Positions 3,443 to 45,079 of a DNA stretch of 64,000 nucleotides are shown here, piece by piece. Source of the stretch: Bacteroidales bacterium (GTDB lineage Bacteria > Bacteroidota > Bacteroidia > Bacteroidales > UBA3824); contig JAFPZK010000029.1 in assembly GCA_017417315.1 (NCBI GenBank), positions 1 to 64,000 of the forward strand, written 5' to 3'. The position numbers and the translations under genes were made by a program. Within the stretch, counting starts at the first letter, position 1, and each line of letters begins with the position of its first letter. The notes beneath the pieces are model-generated. The model had not been told where the DNA came from. It saw only the letters and a list, made by a program, of their open reading frames with translations, and searched no databases.

Positions 3443-3823
3443 ATGAAAAAAATTATTTCTTTATGCGCGATGTTAGTAATGGTATTGACCGTTACATTTT
3501 CGCTCAACAGTTGCAGCAGTATTACAGTTGGTTCAGCAATCGGAGAACTCAGTGCTCAGTGTCCTATGGATATGGGCGATGGAATGACAATGACAGCAGC
3601 CGAGATTGTTAACGGCGATGCCGTAATAAGTGTTAATGCACCCTCACTTAGTGCAGAGGCTTTGAATGCAAATATGAGTGCTGTAAAAGCAAACCTCATT
3701 AACATGTTTAAATCAGATGCAGAAGTTGCAAACGTTTTTAAAGATTCTGACACAAAAATTATTTACCGTTATAAATGCGGCGACGGTGATGTTGAAATCG
3801 TAATATCTCCGAGTGAACTCTAA
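3443..3823 (+). CDS. Small putative lipoprotein of unknown function
   Basis: A 126-residue protein I do not recognise. It opens with a typical export signal (MKKIISLCAMLVMVLTVTFS) and a possible lipobox ending in LNSC at about residues 21-24, so it is probably a lipidated periplasmic or outer-membrane protein. The mature part contains CPMDMGDGMTM and later CGDGDVEIVI, with two further cysteines that could pair. It has its own promoter and shares a bidirectional terminator with the convergent lipoprotein gene at 3880-5121. No function can be assigned from the sequence. Confidence 0.75.
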   Translation: MKKIISLCAMLVMVLTVTFSLNSCSSITVGSAIGELSAQCPMDMGDGMTMTAAEIVNGDAVISVNAPSLSAEALNANMSAVKANLINMFKSDAEVANVFKDSDTKIIYRYKCGDGDVEIVISPSEL

Positions 3824-19976: not shown

Positions 19977-21200
19977 ATGAAAAAACTAACACTTTTATCA
20001 ATTTTATTCGCCGCACTAACGCTTTCTTCATGCGGAAAAGACAGCGACAGCAATAAAGACAGCAAACAACCCATAGAACAGGACACCGCAAAAAATGTCG
20101 TTCAAGAAGAAGATACCGTTAAACGCAGTGAACCCGAAGTAAAGCCGGTTGAAATAAAAATTACTGACAAGGCAATTAATTCGTCAAATGAAAATGTGCA
20201 AAAGGTGTATCAGTTTTTGCTTGACAATTACGGCAAAAAAATAGTTTCGGGGTCAATGGCAAATGTTTCAGTAGAACAGTCGGAAGCCGCACTCGTTAAG
20301 GCTGCAACGGGAAAAACACCGGTGATGCAGACATTTGATTTTTGTTTCATAACGCTGACCTCAGAGCGTTCTACTTGGGAGCAAAATTCTGTTTATCAGG
20401 ATATTACTTATTACAAAAATCTTTGGGAAAAGGGCGGAATAGTTTCGGCTTGTTGGCATCTAAACGTTCCTTCAAAAGAGGAATACGCCGCTAAAAACCA
20501 AGTCAACGACGACAAAAAATCATGGAATGCTCAAATATATTTTTCTGCGAAAAATGCCGTCAAAGAAGGCACTTGGGAAAACAAATTTTTACTTTTTTGC
20601 TTTGACAAAGCCGCCGAAGTTTTGTTAAAATATAAAGAGGCAAATATTCCCGTTGTTTGGCGACCGTTTCATGAAGGCTCCGGCAATGCTGAAATTTCGG
20701 GCAAAAATTCCGACGCTTGGTTTTGGTGGGGCAAAGACGGTGCAGAGGCTTACAAAGCACTTTGGATTTATATGTTTGACTATTTCAAAGCCAAAGGTCT
20801 TGACAATTTGATTTGGGTTTGGACTACTCAGATAGGCGTAGGCAGCGATAACAGCGAAAACTGGTTTTGCAAAGACGATTCAAAATGGTATCCGGGAAAA
20901 GAATATGTTGACATCATAGCCCGTGATAATTACCAAAAAGCCCAAGCCTCAAAATCAGTTACCGAATTTAACACGATTCAGGGATTTTTCCCCGACAAAA
21001 TGATAACTCTCGGAGAAAACGGTTCGATTGCGAAAATTTCGGAAGTTTTTTCTGCGGGCGGAAAATTCTCGTATTTTATGCCTTGGTACACGTATAATTT
21101 AAGCAATCTCGACAAATCTGACCACGCAAACACTGCGTGGTGGAAAGATGCCGCAGAATGTGAAAACGTCATCTTTTTGGAAGATATGAAAGGTTGGTAA
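19977..21200 (+). CDS. GH26 beta-mannanase lipoprotein
   Basis: A 407-residue enzyme with signal and lipobox MKKLTLLSILFAALTLSSC, so lipid-anchored, probably at the outer membrane. A Ser/Asp/Lys-rich linker precedes the GH26 domain (about 60-405). The acid/base is in VVWRPFHEGSG (E233) and the nucleophile in ITLGENGS (E347), both present. AWFWWGKDGAEAYKALW and LIWVWTTQIG are typical of GH26. It hydrolyses beta-1,4-mannan or glucomannan internally. It starts three bases after the acetylesterase stop, so the two are co-transcribed; the pair suits acetylated galactoglucomannan. Confidence 0.92.
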   Translation: MKKLTLLSILFAALTLSSCGKDSDSNKDSKQPIEQDTAKNVVQEEDTVKRSEPEVKPVEIKITDKAINSSNENVQKVYQFLLDNYGKKIVSGSMANVSVEQSEAALVKAATGKTPVMQTFDFCFITLTSERSTWEQNSVYQDITYYKNLWEKGGIVSACWHLNVPSKEEYAAKNQVNDDKKSWNAQIYFSAKNAVKEGTWENKFLLFCFDKAAEVLLKYKEANIPVVWRPFHEGSGNAEISGKNSDAWFWWGKDGAEAYKALWIYMFDYFKAKGLDNLIWVWTTQIGVGSDNSENWFCKDDSKWYPGKEYVDIIARDNYQKAQASKSVTEFNTIQGFFPDKMITLGENGSIAKISEVFSAGGKFSYFMPWYTYNLSNLDKSDHANTAWWKDAAECENVIFLEDMKGW

Positions 21201-21232: not shown

Positions 21233-21264
21233 TTTGGATTATTAAAAGAAAGTATGTAATTTTG
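21233..21264 (+). promoter_or_regulatory. Promoter of the rimP-nusA-infB operon
   Basis: TTTG (21233-21236), 20 bases, TAATTTTG (21257-21264). Transcription would begin near 21271, giving a leader of about 60 bases. Confidence 0.75.
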
Positions 21265-21276
21265 CAGCGCAACTAT

Positions 21277-21305
21277 AAAGAGGGGACTCGGGTAGTCCCC
21301 TCTTT
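21277..21305 (+). promoter_or_regulatory. Hairpin in the rimP-nusA-infB leader (candidate attenuator)
   Basis: Perfect 12-bp stem AAAGAGGGGACT / AGTCCCCTCTTT with the 5-base loop CGGGT, followed by a T-rich stretch. It begins within about 10 bases of the predicted transcript start and lies wholly between promoter and rimP, so it is not a terminator for an upstream gene. It could be an attenuator, a protein-binding site or a 5'-end stabiliser. Confidence 0.6.
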
Positions 21306-21331
21306 TATTCAAAAACTTTTTTTAACAATAT

Positions 21332-21793
21332 ATGATTTCAGCACAGAGAGTAAAAGATTTGTTCGAACAGACACCTGAATTAAGCCGTTATTTCATTGTT
21401 GAGGTAAAAGCCTCGGAAAACAATGAAATTTTTGTGTCCGTAGATACCGATTCGGGAATCACGATTGATGAGTGCGGGGAAATCAGCCGTATTATTGATG
21501 AAAAACTTAACCGCGACATCGAAGATTTTGACCTCGAAGTTTCGTCTCCGGGACTTTCAGAGCCGCTGAAAGTGTTAAGACAATATATAAAGTATACGGG
21601 TAAAAACGTTGAAATAGTTTTAACAAACGGTGAAAAACTCAACGGGAAACTCCTTTCTGTTACGGAAGAAGGTATCGTTGTGGAGACCGAAAGAAAAGAA
21701 AAACAAAACAAAAAAACCGTAAAAATTAAGGAAAACAAAAGCCTTAACTTTTGCGACATTAAAACTACAAAGTTAAAAATTACGTTTAAATAA
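21332..21793 (+). CDS. rimP: Ribosome maturation factor RimP
   Basis: A 153-residue cytoplasmic protein needed for 30S subunit assembly. The N-terminal domain has ITIDECGEISRIIDEKLN and the signature DFDLEVSSPGLSEPLK; the C-terminal part is an SH3-like barrel (GKNVEIVLTNGEKLNGKLL). It is the first gene of the classic rimP-nusA-infB operon, with its own promoter and a hairpin in the leader. nusA follows after 18 bases. Length and order agree with the family. Confidence 0.96.
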   Translation: MISAQRVKDLFEQTPELSRYFIVEVKASENNEIFVSVDTDSGITIDECGEISRIIDEKLNRDIEDFDLEVSSPGLSEPLKVLRQYIKYTGKNVEIVLTNGEKLNGKLLSVTEEGIVVETERKEKQNKKTVKIKENKSLNFCDIKTTKLKITFK

Positions 21794-21811: not shown

Positions 21812-23050
21812 ATGGAAATTAATAATCTGATAGATTCCTTTGCCGAGTTCAAGGAACAAAAAAATATTGACCGCGCCACAATGATGCGCGTGATAGAAGA
21901 AGTTTTCAGGAATATACTTGCCAAAAGATTTGGTACGGACGAGAATTTCGATATTATCATCAATATCGATAAGGGCGACCTCGAAATCTGGCGCAACAGG
22001 GTTGTTGTTGAAGACGGCGACGTTCAGGATACGAATCTTGAAATTTCTATCTCGGATGCCAAAGCCATCGACAAGGACTACGAAATCGACGAAGAGGTTA
22101 CCGACGAGGTAAAATTCAAAGATTTCGGACGCCGCGCTATTTTGACTTTGAGACAAAACCTTACTTCAAAAATTCTCGAACTCGAAAAAGAAAAACTTTA
22201 CGAAAAATACAAAAACCGTATCGGCGAGATTGTTACGGGCGAGGTTTATCAGGTTTGGAAAAAGGAAATACTCATTCTTGACGACGAAGGCAACGAACTT
22301 GCGCTGCCTAAACAAGAACAGATACCTAACGATTTCTTCCACAAAGGCGACAACCTAAGGGCTGTCATCAACACCGTTGAAATGAAAAACGGTTCACCAT
22401 CAATCACGCTTTCAAGAACCGCTCCGGCATTCTTGGAAAGATTGTTTGAATTGGAAGTTCCCGAAATTTATGACGGTTTGATAACAATCAAGAAAATTGT
22501 CCGCATACCGGGAGAAAGAGCAAAGGTCGCTGTTGAAAGTTACGACGAAAGAATAGATCCTGTAGGAGCATGCGTAGGAATGAAAGGCTCGCGTATTCAC
22601 GGTATTGTCCGCGAATTAAGAAACGAAAACATTGACGTTATCAATTACAGCAACAACAGCCAACTTTTCATACAACGCACTCTTAGTCCGGCGGTTATAA
22701 ATGATATTAAAGTCAATGAAGCCGAAAAGAAGGCGGAAGTTTATTTGGCACCTGAGGAAGTGTCGAAGGCCATCGGCAGAAACGGCGCAAATATCAAACT
22801 CGCAGGACAATTAACCGGTTATGACATTGAAGTGTTCAGGGATATTCAAGAGGGTGAAGAAGAAGACGTTGACCTCATGGAGTTCTCTGACGAAATTGAA
22901 GGTTGGATCATCGATGCTTTGAAAGGTATCGGTTGTGATACGGCCAAAGACGTTCTCAACATTCCGAAAGACGAACTCGTAAGACGTACCGATTTGGAAG
23001 AAGAGACGATTGACGATGTAGTCAATATACTGAAAGCCGAATTTGAATAG
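21812..23050 (+). CDS. nusA: Transcription termination/antitermination protein NusA
   Basis: A 412-residue RNA-polymerase-binding factor. Residues about 1-130 are the polymerase-binding N domain (MRVIEEVFRNILAKRF). An S1 domain follows (GEIVTGEVYQVWKKEILI), then two KH domains (VGACVGMKGSRIHGIVREL with a GMKGSR loop; EEVSKAIGRNGANIKLAGQL with a GRNG loop). The C-terminus is short, ending in one helix-rich acidic repeat (IGCDTAKDVLNIPKDEL), as in other Bacteroidota. It sits between rimP and infB in the usual order and modulates pausing and termination. Confidence 0.97.
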   Translation: MEINNLIDSFAEFKEQKNIDRATMMRVIEEVFRNILAKRFGTDENFDIIINIDKGDLEIWRNRVVVEDGDVQDTNLEISISDAKAIDKDYEIDEEVTDEVKFKDFGRRAILTLRQNLTSKILELEKEKLYEKYKNRIGEIVTGEVYQVWKKEILILDDEGNELALPKQEQIPNDFFHKGDNLRAVINTVEMKNGSPSITLSRTAPAFLERLFELEVPEIYDGLITIKKIVRIPGERAKVAVESYDERIDPVGACVGMKGSRIHGIVRELRNENIDVINYSNNSQLFIQRTLSPAVINDIKVNEAEKKAEVYLAPEEVSKAIGRNGANIKLAGQLTGYDIEVFRDIQEGEEEDVDLMEFSDEIEGWIIDALKGIGCDTAKDVLNIPKDELVRRTDLEEETIDDVVNILKAEFE

Positions 23051-23090: not shown

Positions 23091-26000
23091 ATGGGACAAG
23101 AGACAAAAGAAACACGATTACATAAAGTAGCAAAAGAACTGAACGTGGGCGTAAGCACCATAGTTGACTTTCTTAACAAAAAAGGGTTTCAGGTTGACAG
23201 CAACCCGAACCAACGTATTAACTCTAAACAATACGACATACTTGTTAAGGAGTTCAGTTCTGATATTACAATAAAAAAACAGATGGAAAAATTGGCTGAA
23301 ATTGAAAAGGAAAAGAAAAAAGCAATTTCAGCAGAAAACAAAGCAAAAAGACAGGCTGAGAAGCAGAACAACGGAAAAAACAACGACAACTCTAACCAAG
23401 TTACTAAGGAAAACGGAGTTAAGGTGTTAGGTAAAATAGATTTGGATCAGAATAAAAACAAAAACGACAAATCCGGCAATAGTTCCGAGGCTCAGAACAA
23501 CAAAAATAATAATAACGATAATCAAAAACAAAACAAACAAAACGGCTCTCAACCGAAAGAGCAAAACAGCGAACAGAGTTTCAAGGTTTTGGGCAAAATA
23601 GACCTCGACAGCATTAATACAAAAATGCGTCCCGACAAAAAGTCCAAACAAGAAAAACGTCAGGAAAGAGAACAACGTCAAAGAGAACAACAGAGACAAA
23701 ATCAGCAGAATCAGCAAAAACGTAACGATGCTGCTAACCGACAACAACAGCCGCAACCTCAACCCAAAAAGGTTGAAACAAACAGCGTTGTTGATTCCGT
23801 TAAAAAACAAGAGACGGAAAACAAAGAAGTCTCTGAGGAAATTTTCCGTCCTAACAGTACAGTATTGTCAGGACCGAAAATTCTTGGAAAAATTGATATT
23901 GATAAACTCATTGACAATGATTCCAACAATGCACAGCAAGATAACAAACACGGCAGAAGACGTGCAAGACGCAGAGGCAATAAGGTGGACATCAACGGTG
24001 AGGTTTCTCAAAACCGCAACGACAAATCCAACAACAAAAAGCAACCGAAAAAGGAGAATAACAATAACGAAAACAACTCCAACGAGAATAAAAAAGGCGG
24101 CAAAAATAATGACCGTCAAGAGAAAAATATAAAATCCGACCGCGATAAAAAAGACGGAGGCAAAGGCGGAAAACGTCAGAAAGACAAAGACCGCTGGAAA
24201 GCACCCGAAATCACGGAAGACGACATCAAGAAACAGATTAAGGAAGTCAACGCCACAATGCAAAGCAGCAAAGGCAAGACTTTCTCATCAAAACGTGCGC
24301 GTGAAAAACGTGAAGACGCACGCCACAAAGAAGAAATCCGTCAGCAGGAGGTTGAAAAAGAAAACAAAATCCTCAAAGTTACTCAGTTTATAACCGCTGA
24401 CGAACTTGCCACGATGATGAACGTACCCGTTACGCAAATCATCGCAACGTGTTTTGACCTCGGAACGATTATTTCAATCAACCAAAGACTTGATGCTGAA
24501 ATAATTCAAATCGTTGCTTCGGAATTCGGCTTTGAAGTAAAATTCATCGGCGCAGAAGAGGAGGAAGAGGAAGAACTCCAAAACGAGGACAATCCTGAGG
24601 ATATGCAACCAAGACCGCCGATTGTTACTATTATGGGACACGTTGACCACGGTAAAACTTCGCTTCTTGACTATATCAGAAATACTAACGTCATCGCTGG
24701 CGAGGCAGGCGGTATAACGCAGCACATCGGTGCGTACAACGTTAAACTTGCGGACGGAAAACACATCACGTTCCTTGATACTCCGGGACACGCAGCGTTT
24801 ACGGCAATGAGAGCAAGAGGTGCTAAAATCACCGACATTGTTGTCATCGTAATTGCCGCTGACGACAGCATAATGCCGCAGACGGAAGAGGCAATTTCGC
24901 ACGCATTAGCGGCTGAGGTTCCGATTATTTTTGCAATCAACAAAATAGACAAACCGGCGGCAAACCCGCAGAAAATAAAAGAAGAACTTGCCAACAAAAA
25001 CCTTTTGGTTGAAGAATGGGGCGGTAAATACGGCTCTGTTGAAATTTCGGCGAAAAAAGGTCTTAACGTTGACAAACTTCTTGAAAGAATACTTCTCGAG
25101 GCAGAAATGCTTGAACTAAAAGCAAATTATAAACGTCCGGCATTCGGCACGGTTATTGAAGCCTCTTTGGACAAAGGTCGCGGTTACACTTCAAACATCA
25201 TAGTTGAAGGCGGTATCTTGAAAATCGGTGATGCAGTTTGCGCAGGAAGATGTTCCGGCAAAATCAGAGCAATGTTCAACGAGAGAGGTAAAAAAATCAC
25301 GGAAGCAAAACCCTCAGAGCCGGCAGTTATTCTCGGTCTTGACGGCGCACCAGTAGCAGGCGACAAGTTTAAGGTAATGCCTGACGAAAGAACTGCACGC
25401 GAAAAAGCAACAAGAAGAGAACTTCTCGACAGAGAAATGGCTCAAAGGACTCAGCGACACATGACTCTCGACCTTATCAGCAAACGTATTGCACTCGGAA
25501 TCGACAACTTCAAAGAACTCAAACTTATTATCAAGGGCGATGTTCAAGGTTCTATCGAGGCGTTAGCAGATTCTTTGGAAAAACTTTCTACCGAAGAAAT
25601 CGAAGTCAAGGTTATTCAAAAGGCTGTCGGTCAGATTTCGGAAAACGATGTCATGTTGGCAAGTGCTTCGGACGCAATTATTATCGGTTTCCAAGTACGT
25701 CCGTCCTCTGGCGCAAAACGTTTGGCTGAAAAAGAACAGATTAGTATCGAACTTTACTCCGTCATCTACGATGCTATTGAAGACGTCAAGAACGCAATGG
25801 AAAAAATGCTTTCACCCGAAATCAAAGAAGAAATTACGGGTACGGCAGAAGTTCAACAGACTTTCAAAATCTCGAAAGTCGGAACTATTGCGGGCTGCGT
25901 AGTCAAAGAAGGAAAAATCCTCAAAAGCAACAAATGCAGGGTTATCCGCGACGGTATCGTTATTCATGATGGCACACTTGAATCTCTCAAACACTTCAAA

Positions 26001-26126
26001 GACGATGTTAAGGAAGTCGGTCCGGGTATGGAATGTGGCTTGAACGTTGCTAAATTCAACGACATTCAAGAAGGCGATATAATTGAGTCTTACGAAGAAA
26101 AGAAAGTTTCAAGAAAACTTGATTAA
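23091..26126 (+). CDS. infB: Translation initiation factor IF-2
   Basis: A GTPase that brings initiator tRNA to the 30S subunit. The 1011 residues include an N-terminal IF2_N domain ([20 protein letters not shown]). A highly charged, Asn/Gln/Lys-rich disordered linker (about 75-430) contains three copies of an LGKID(L/I)D motif. A second IF2_N-like segment follows ([21 protein letters not shown]), then the G domain with G1 [11 protein letters not shown]3 DTPGHAAF and G4 NKID, and domains II-IV to the end. Last gene of rimP-nusA-infB, followed by a terminator. Confidence 0.98.
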
Positions 26127-43201: not shown

Positions 43202-43274
43202 CACGGGTGGAGAGACTCGAACTCCCGACACCTGGTTTTGGAGACCAGTGCTCTACCAACTGAGCTACACCCGT
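43202..43274 (-). tRNA. trnW: tRNA-Trp (CCA)
   Basis: 73 nt on the minus strand; acceptor ACGGGTG/CACCCGT, D arm GCTC-AGTTGGTA-GAGC, anticodon loop CTCCAAA (anticodon CCA), T arm with TTCGAGT. No encoded CCA end. It lies between tuf and secE, the classic position. Confidence 0.97.
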
Positions 43275-43279
43275 AATTT

Positions 43280-43359
43280 CGTAGGGGCGAAAGATTTTTC
43301 GCATTGTACGGGCGAAAGATTTTTCGCATTGTACGGGCGAAAGATTTTTCGCCCCTACG
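43280..43359. repeat. Triple 25-bp tandem repeat inside a 13-bp inverted repeat
   Basis: Three head-to-tail units of 25 bp (43281-43305, 43306-43330, 43331-43355), each containing GCGAAAGATTTTTCGC, itself nearly self-complementary. The first and third units differ at their outer ends so that CGTAGGGGCGAAA (43280-43292) is exactly complementary to 43347-43359. It lies 20 bases after the tuf stop and 5 bases before tRNA-Trp. It may be a small mobile repeat that expanded, and its folded RNA could end or process the tuf mRNA. Confidence 0.9.
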
Positions 43360-43379
43360 ATGATATTGTGAATTAAATA

Positions 43380-44570
43380 TTATTCAACGATTTTACCAAC
43401 CTGACCAGAACCTACTGTTCTACCGCCTTCACGAATTGCAAAACGCAAACCTTCGTTCAAAGCAACCGGGTAGATAAGTTCTACGGTGATATTTACGTGG
43501 TCGCCCGGCATTACCATTTCAACGCCTTCCGGAAGAGTGATTTCACCGGTAACGTCCAAGGTACGCAAGTAGAACTGCGGACGATATTTGTTGTGGAACG
43601 GTGTGTGACGACCGCCTTCTTCTTTTTTCAATACGTAGATTTCAGCCGTAAATTTGGTGTGAGGAGTGATTGAACCGGGTTTAGCGATAACCATACCTCT
43701 CTTAATTTGGTCTTTATCAATACCTCTTAACAACAAACCTGCGTTGTCGCCTGCTTCACCTTTGTCAAGAAGTTTACGGAACATTTCGATACCGGTAACA
43801 GTTGATTTCAATGCGCCTTCTTTTGAAAGACCTACGATTTCAACCGGGTCGTTGAGGTTAACGATACCAGTTTCAATTCTACCGGTAGCAACAGTACCAC
43901 GACCGGTGATTGAGAAGATGTCCTCGATAGGCATCAAGAAAGGTTTATCAACGTCACGGGTCGGCTGCGGAATGTATTCGTCAACAGCAGCCATAAGTTC
44001 CATAACTTTCTCTTCCCATTTTGCTTCGCCGTTCAATGCGCCGAGTGCAGAACCTCTGATAATCGGAGTATTGTCGCCGTCATAATCGTAAGAAGAAAGT
44101 AATTCACGAACTTCCATTTCAACGAGGTCTAACAACTCAGGGTCGTCAACCATATCGCATTTGTTCATGAAAACAACAATCCTCGGAACGTTTACCTGAC
44201 GAGCCAAAAGGATGTGCTCGCGAGTCTGAGGCATAGGACCGTCAGTTGCAGCAACTACGAGGATTGCACCGTCCATCTGAGCAGCACCAGTTACCATGTT
44301 CTTTACATAGTCGGCGTGACCAGGGCAGTCAACGTGTGCATAGTGACGATTTGCAGTCTGATATTCTACGTGAGCGGTATTAATGGTTATACCTCTTTCC
44401 TTCTCTTCGGGAGCGTTATCGATTGAATCGAAACTTCTAACTTCTGAAAGACCTTTCTTTGCCAAAACTGTTGTGATAGCAGCGGTCAAAGTAGTCTTAC
44501 CGTGGTCAACGTGACCAATCGTACCGATGTTTACGTGCGGTTTGGATCTGTCGAATGCTTCTTTAGCCAT
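43380..44570 (-). CDS. tuf: Elongation factor Tu
   Basis: A 396-residue GTPase that delivers aminoacyl-tRNA. G1 GHVDHGKT, the switch I block [15 protein letters not shown]3 [13 protein letters not shown]4 NKCD and G5 GSALGAL are all present; the C-terminal domains end in [15 protein letters not shown]. It sits behind four tRNA genes, with tRNA-Trp and secE downstream, the arrangement found in many bacteria. Only this tuf copy is in the window. Confidence 0.99.
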
Positions 44571-44634
44571 GTTCTAAAAGTATTTAGATAAATTAATAAA
44601 TTATTGTTCTCTTTTTTGTTTTTTTCAAACAATT

Positions 44635-44670
44635 ATGTACGCGAACATAACTTTCATTACGCGCATACAT
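44635..44670 (-). other. Hairpin between tRNA-Thr(GGU) and tuf
   Basis: Nine-base arms (44635-44643 and 44662-44670, ATGTACGCG against CGCATACAT with one G-U type pair) in the AT-rich gap upstream of tuf. It could separate or process the tRNA and tuf parts of the transcript. No T run follows, so it is not a standard terminator. Confidence 0.35.
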
Positions 44671-44680
44671 AAAAAAATAG

Positions 44681-44752
<72 letters not shown>

Positions 44753-44768
44753 ATTAAATCTTTTTTAG

Positions 44769-44841
44769 AGCGGGAGACGAGTCTCGAACCCGCGACCTTC
44801 AGCTTGGAAGGCTGACGCTCTACCAATTGAGCTACTCCCGC
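44769..44841 (-). tRNA. trnG: tRNA-Gly (UCC)
   Basis: 73 nt on the minus strand; acceptor GCGGGAG/CTCCCGC, anticodon loop CTTCCAA (anticodon TCC), T loop TTCGAGA. Confidence 0.96.
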
Positions 44842-44875
44842 AATAATAATTGTTTAACTTTTAAAAATCTATTTG

Positions 44876-44957
44876 TGGGAAGTAATGGATTCGAACCACT
44901 GAAGGCAAAGCCAGCTGATTTACAGTCAGCCCTCGTTGACCGCTGGAGCAACTTCCC
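44876..44957 (-). tRNA. trnY: tRNA-Tyr (GUA)
   Basis: 82 nt on the minus strand with a long variable arm, as expected for tyrosine; acceptor GGGAAGT/ACTTCCC, anticodon loop CTGTAAA (anticodon GTA), T loop TTCGAAT. Confidence 0.97.
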
Positions 44958-45005
44958 ATCTTCAATATCATTATTTCAAACTAACGTGCCTTTCTTTTAT
45001 ATCAG

Positions 45006-45079
45006 AGCCGGCGGAGGGATTCGAACCCCCGACCCGCTGATTACAAATCAGCTGCTCTGGCCAACTGAGCTACGCCGGC
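45006..45079 (-). tRNA. trnT: tRNA-Thr (UGU)
   Basis: 74 nt on the minus strand; acceptor GCCGGCG/CGCCGGC, anticodon loop TTTGTAA (anticodon TGT), T loop TTCGAAT. First gene of the tRNA-tuf-secE-nusG-rpl-rpoBC transcription unit. Confidence 0.97.

Follow-up and report, generated by a model that had tools for sequence, protein, structure and literature searches.

A putative leaky terminator in the rimP-nusA-infB leader of Bacteroidota, with probable NusA feedback

Introduction

The general rimP-leader has been described as a GGGc(...)gCCC terminator before rimP-nusA-infB, with no antiterminator and with NusA as the best candidate regulator; the legend of that work names Firmicutes and Gammaproteobacteria, and the word 'Bacteroid' occurs 0 times in its main text, supplements aside (Naville and Gautheret 2010, PMC2965389). 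In S. agalactiae, transcription of gbs0413-gbs0418 stops 31 nt downstream of its start, at an intrinsic terminator ahead of rimP-nusA, and NusA feedback has been proposed (PMC4448216). NusA autoregulation has been reported for E. coli and B. subtilis (PMC2965389, PMC12288461), in the latter by termination in the leader of its own gene (2025 review, PMC12288461). A structured element 5' of rimP in F. psychrophilum, conserved in Flavobacteriaceae and without an Rfam hit, was called original (PMC9723704), and the main text of a B. thetaiotaomicron transcriptome paper contains neither 'nusA' nor 'rimP' (PMC7366714). No Bacteroidota account linking the rimP element, the rimP-leader and NusA was found in the open-access literature. 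Interrupted U-tracts reportedly mark NusA-dependent terminators in B. subtilis (Mondal 2016), and the nusA leader of that species is not known to have an antiterminator.

Here we analyse the rimP-nusA-infB leader in a Bacteroidales window, that is, the whole stretch of 64,000 nucleotides under study, which comes from a genome of 3.94 Mb in 85 contigs. To judge from its sequence, the Bacteroidota element is a member, widespread in the phylum, of the known rimP-leader kind.

Results

Hairpin and promoter of the rimP leader

The leader and the operon comprise the following features:

21233-21236, plus strand: -33 promoter element TTTG (sequence read; relatives share the spacing)
21257-21264, plus strand: -7 promoter element TAnnTTTG, here TAATTTTG (sequence read; relatives share the motif)
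21277-21288, plus strand: 5' arm of the hairpin, AAAGAGGGGACT
21289-21293, plus strand: loop, CGGGT
21294-21305, plus strand: 3' arm of the hairpin, AGTCCCCTCTTT
21303-21310, plus strand: interrupted U-tract TTTTATTC, starting directly after the last G-C pair (21302)
21332-21793, plus strand: rimP (Pfam RimP_N and RimP C-terminal domain)
21812-23050, plus strand: nusA, proposed regulator and target (Pfam NusA_N and KH_5)
23091-26126, plus strand: infB (Pfam IF-2 and GTP_EFTU)

Direct reading of 21277-21305 on the plus strand bore out exactly the perfect 12-bp stem, 5-base loop and T-rich stretch reported by the first-pass annotation, and placed GGGGAC/GTCCCC at the centre of this terminator-like hairpin. 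The 3' arm is followed by TATTCAAAAAC, with the T-rich TTTTATT adjoining the stem, and a second T-run, T7, lies downstream at 21317-21323. The leader thus carries the sequence features of an intrinsic terminator, a GC-rich hairpin and then a U-tract, from which transcript release is predicted. The isolated stem folds at -18.8 kcal/mol, a value equalled by 0 of 200 shuffles, and the fold of the 91-nt context has a z of -2.55, with 4 of 200 shuffles as good. The hairpin ends 26 nt before the rimP start codon, or 29 nt when counted from the last G-C pair.

The -33 and -7 elements are 20 nt apart, and the hairpin begins 12 nt past the latter. We take this TTTG and TAnnTTTG pair to be a promoter of the Bacteroidota type. 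From the position of the promoter and the layout of this type, transcription is expected to start at about 21268-21272, about 6 nt 5' of the stem, and the earlier claim of a hairpin about six bases from the start with the promoter upstream agrees with the motif at 21233-21264 at the level of prediction. A scan with the sigma-70 consensus, and with a denser T-run required, reported neither the rimP promoter nor the hairpin. When promoter-like sites were defined as TTG 18-21 nt before TAnnTTTG, one of the seven plus-strand sites in the window, that of the rimP leader, had such a hairpin after it, as did one of the ten minus-strand sites, which lies inside the plus-strand GH26 gene.

The gene 5' of the leader encodes a family 26 glycosyl hydrolase (GH26, Pfam) and ends at 21200. 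The view that the hairpin is the terminator of GH26 only draws on its being the first plus-strand terminator-like hairpin after that gene, and it may also stop GH26 read-through. The hairpin lies past the rimP promoter motif, and rough gene calling showed a divergent upstream gene in 43 of 96 relatives (96 of the 123 loci described below, 25 being too short and two having no long frame), so its role goes beyond terminating the upstream gene; we regard the GH26-only view as highly improbable.

Comparison with described leaders

The Bacteroidota element shares with the general rimP-leader the operon, the GGG(...)CCC hairpin centre, the T-stretch, the lack of a visible antiterminator and the proposed involvement of NusA, and differs from it, as published, in its GGGGAC/GTCCCC centre and broken tail. 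Measured against that description, the window's element lies in the 5' UTR of rimP-nusA-infB as set by the predicted promoter, has the GGG(...)CCC stem with an interrupted T-stretch and no evident antiterminator, and stands 26 nt from the gene start, within the described 4-130 nt. The earlier idea of attenuation at this leader is supported but not new, a general rimP-leader having been published in 2010. The E. coli metY-rimP leader carries a GGGC...GCCC hairpin and T7 directly before rimP, with a tRNA upstream as in some relatives; its second hairpin reads GGGCTTTAGGCCC-T7, which is the general form (sequence read), and its two hairpins stand in tandem, whereas the window has one. The S. agalactiae leader is that of a Firmicute and its RNA ends have been mapped, whereas at the window's element the RNA ends are predicted. 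Likewise, NusA-stimulated intrinsic termination in the B. subtilis nusA 5' leader comes from experiment, whereas for Bacteroidota we infer it. The F. psychrophilum element belongs to the same phylum, but the accessible text on it makes no link to the rimP-leader and contains 'nusA' 0 times (PMC9723704).

The Rfam rimP leader, RF01770, has the same gene context but is a model of 102 positions. Its cut-off (47 bits) was not reached in the window or in any of 20 relatives, and among the matches listed for these relatives none was at the leader hairpin site. The Rfam scan of the window gave no gathering match except five tRNAs, every match from a loose Rfam search of the leader fell well short of its cut-off, and the regions of the 20 relatives gave two weak matches, both below cut-off. 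A cluster of five tRNA genes occupies 43202-45079 of the window on the minus strand.

Conservation upstream of rimP

The upstream sample consisted of the rimP genomes among 59 genomes and of 80 named loci found with NusA. In the former, rimP was present in 56 of 59, with three contigs ending too early; G029, G050 and G051 (L135) were left out since the contig stops before the leader. A strict terminator-like hairpin was found in 103 of 114 distinct rimP upstreams of at least 110 nt, compared with 14 of 2280 dinucleotide shuffles. After 13 more upstreams had been added by coordinates, a looser rule recovered a comparable element in 123 of 126 distinct upstreams, a count that includes three elements set by hand (L023, L044 and L095) and at least four doubtful picks that were kept (L024, L030, L096 and L107). 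The three upstreams of the 126 with no such hairpin, L079, L085 and L086, all lie behind a tRNA-Gln.

Analysis of the 123 elements revealed TAnnTTTG in the 70 nt upstream of the stem in 114, compared with 5.5% (339/6150) of mononucleotide shuffles, at a median distance of 22 nt. In 86 of these 114 promoters, TTG ends 19, 20 or 21 nt before TAnnTTTG (32, 46 and 8 cases), a spacing that the promoter in the window shares. The last G-C pair precedes the start codon by a median of 22 nt (range in relatives, 9-109 nt).

A tRNA-Gln (TTG) lies directly 5' of rimP at L048:1899-1970, L051:1898-1971, L063:1896-1967 and L131:230-302, and also, with the hairpin absent, at L079:1806-1877, L085:1825-1896 and L086:1796-1867; the arrangement in these seven relatives resembles that of the tRNA-Met gene metY before rimP in E. 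coli. Two records titled Williamsia and Verrucomicrobia (L067 and L068) carry a Bacteroidota-type NusA and leader and are probably mislabelled assemblies.

Covariation and fixed parts of the element

A GGG in the 5' arm that is paired with the 3' arm was present in 120 of the 123 elements, the window's included. Among these 120, the pair two places outside the GGG is G-C in 48, U-A in 25, A-U in 21 and C-G in 5; both partners also vary in the loop-side pairs, whereas the three central pairs are nearly invariant. Alignment A1 took 73 of 103 non-redundant elements, and the seed of the covariance model comprised 24 of the 27 non-redundant elements with a 16-nt centre, L052, L132 and L134 being dropped. 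In the gap-free alignment of 24 sequences, four of eight pairs change on both sides and 99.0% of the cells are paired, compared with 34-64% in controls with slid partners. Covariation in relatives, which had been set beforehand as the check on this hairpin, was thus found. In the tail, with positions counted from the C opposite the first G of GGG (21300 in the window), T is kept at positions 4, 5, 6 and 9 in 113, 117, 105 and 110 of the 120 elements, and position 7 is often broken, with T in just 51. Because of the covarying pairs, the fixed GGG:CCC centre and the kept T's of the tail, both the structure and the sequence of the element appear to be under selection.

These constraints bear on two other roles for the hairpin. 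As it starts a few nucleotides from the predicted 5' end, it could shield the mRNA from decay; yet the T-rich tract is kept beside the stem (105-117 of 120 elements have T at tail positions 4, 5 and 6), GGG:CCC is fixed in sequence, and at L048, L051, L063 and L131 the hairpin persists behind tRNA-Gln with no TAnnTTTG in the 70 nt before it. The last of these argues against a hairpin that does no more than stabilise the 5' end, and we consider this role very improbable. Control of translation by hiding the start codon would suit a hairpin within the predicted 5' UTR, but the distance from the last G-C pair to the start codon (the median above, and 29 nt in the window) and the conserved U-rich tract stand against it, making it extremely improbable.

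Distribution in the class and specificity of the sequence

For a class-level sample, 99 genomes were drawn evenly, 90 of which had a RimP_N match; 89 upstreams were used, the window's genome being excluded. Promoter, GGG-stem and U-tail occurred in this order in 78 of 89, and in 77 within 200 nt of the RimP match, the pick of L195, 266 nt away, being excluded from the 77. Without the promoter requirement, stem and tail were found in 79 of 89, compared with 32 of 890 mononucleotide shuffles. Of the 11 upstreams missed by the full-order rule, L175, L190, L200, L210, L233, L234 and L246 carry a related hairpin by rule or by eye. By eye, no hairpin was seen in the other four of the 11 (L208, L212, L220 and L236), and none near rimP in L195.

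The pattern GGGGACN{2,7}GTCCCC matched 49 sites in 38 of 58 genomes, of which 36 are rimP leaders and 13 are not, as judged by comparison with rimP coordinates; the same pattern read backwards gave 33 sites. None of the 13 non-rimP sites was seen before nusA, and five are in or before similar genes (L149-L152 and L154). At L150:500, L152:500 and L154:500, in three genomes of the same genus, a hairpin of the GGGGGACAA/TTTGTCCCCC type, unrelated to rimP, stands directly before a similar gene, whose protein begins MDNNFAIQLFEGKKVR or alike. The window's genome contains the pattern once only, at the rimP leader, and a genomic repeat was rejected on this single match.

In a search of both strands of the 64-kb window with covariance model R1, the rimP leader hairpin was the only match. 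The model's best genome-wide match was the rimP leader in seven of eight Flavobacteriales-type genomes, the eighth having no match at E up to 0.001. Among 19 further matches inspected in these eight genomes, eight are hairpins 24-30 nt past a gene end, three are hairpins elsewhere, and a script found no clear hairpin in the other eight. In the class sample, 83 of 99 genomes had a model match at E up to 0.01; of the 67 with a best match listed, 32 have it at rimP and 35 at another site, and two of the 35 genomes (G073 and G103) lack a RimP_N match. By their position after gene ends, similar hairpins act as gene-end terminators in Flavobacteriales, which shows that the phylum uses hairpins of this type in terminator positions. 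In some genomes, the sequence of the element also occurs outside nusA operons.

Association of the element with nusA

Ten genomes without rimP beside nusA, some of them perhaps incomplete, were checked with RimP_N, and one, that of L097, had a match over the cut-off. There, rimP (Pfam) has moved to a different contig, where 2 nt separate it from its upstream gene and neither a promoter motif nor a hairpin intervenes; nusA retains TAnnTTTG and the hairpin. L058, L253, L254, L255 and L257 carry the hairpin ahead of nusA without an intervening rimP, and the covariance model confirmed the hairpins of L058, L097, L253, L254 and L257. Two further loci without rimP beside nusA (L256 and L258, in G103 and G142) have degenerate hairpins only. 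L259 (G018) has a tRNA-Gln (1324-1395) before nusA and then another kind of hairpin, and L260, in the 0.5-Mb genome G083, has no hairpin before nusA. In L055, nusA is followed by an ordinary terminator, after which infB (Pfam IF2_N) comes with a separate TAATTTTG and another copy of the element. This copy scores 28.9 bits at 3709-3739, promoter motif and hairpin together spanning 3670-3740, and was the only second copy seen among the loci searched with the model. Across these loci, the hairpin mostly stays at nusA when rimP is gone or moved, so the element accompanies nusA, and in one case infB, more than it does rimP. Such absences and moves of rimP are natural experiments pointing to NusA over RimP.

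Terminator quality and search for an antiterminator

Comparison of the leaders with gene-end terminators indicated that the leader U-tract is shorter and more broken: the longest T-run in the first 10 nt averages 4.36 in 119 leaders versus 5.77 in 30 gene-end terminators (P 1.5e-5). The median stem energy is -13.3 versus -11.3 kcal/mol, a difference that is not significant (P 0.13). Six of 36 gene-end terminators had been removed as leader copies, and at least two antisense leader hairpins (L059 and L066) stayed among the 30; GGG occurs in the 5' arm of four of the 30, and in 120 of 120 leaders by construction. A good stem with a broken U-tract is as expected of a leaky terminator, and the Bacteroidota leaders show the weak or interrupted U-tract that reportedly characterises NusA-autoregulated leader terminators (Mondal 2016).

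The approximate start site lies a median of 19 nt before the stem (111 leaders), and CCC occurs in this stretch in 1 of 114. The complement to the 5' arm there measures 3.19 nt versus 3.30 nt in shuffles, which is no excess, and 12 of 111 leaders have a stretch of at least 6 nt able to pair with the 5' arm when G-U is allowed. The stretch before the stem is short, rarely contains CCC and pairs no better than shuffles do, which makes a conserved antiterminator unlikely. An antiterminator or riboswitch was weighed as a candidate and ranked lower.

All of the terminator sequence evidence would fit equally well with a leaky terminator that has a fixed read-through or responds to another factor (NusG, RimP or growth rate), without NusA feedback, and it names no factor. 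That the element mostly stays with nusA and not with rimP, and that NusA feedback is among the published findings for E. coli and B. subtilis, speak against this alternative, which we consider rather unlikely.

Discussion

Taken from sequence comparison, attenuation by the leader hairpin is strongly supported, and NusA is the likely effector, since the element stays with nusA, no antiterminator is evident, and E. coli, B. subtilis and S. agalactiae offer analogies. We consider it probable that the hairpin is a leaky intrinsic terminator in the rimP-nusA-infB 5' leader through which NusA would exert negative feedback. Of the first-pass proposal that NusA controls its own operon by attenuation, the attenuation part gained support from the covarying stem, the adjacent U-rich tract, the fixed place between promoter and start codon and the divergent upstream genes, and the NusA part stays conditional.

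The model builds on the structure, conservation, placement and weaker tail read from the sequence, and we infer in it the start site, the partial termination and the effector role of NusA. RNA polymerase would start about 6 nt 5' of the stem; some of it would stop near 21309-21312 and release an RNA of about 40 nt, and the remainder would read through into rimP-nusA-infB. NusA would promote hairpin folding and pausing at the weak U-tract, so that more NusA would give more stopping and less operon mRNA. Tentatively, the fixed GGG:CCC and the broken U-tract might form a dedicated NusA sensor that acts in trans, belongs to nusA and can be copied to other units, such as infB in L055; we find this possible but doubtful. 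If such a sensor exists, the phylum would gauge NusA through transcription that ends early, no more than about 40-60 nt from the promoter.

With the element described here, the range of a widely predicted attenuator grows to include most of the sampled Bacteroidota genomes, where the Rfam model misses it. If the probable link to NusA holds, very distant phyla would share a feedback in which NusA acts through early termination.
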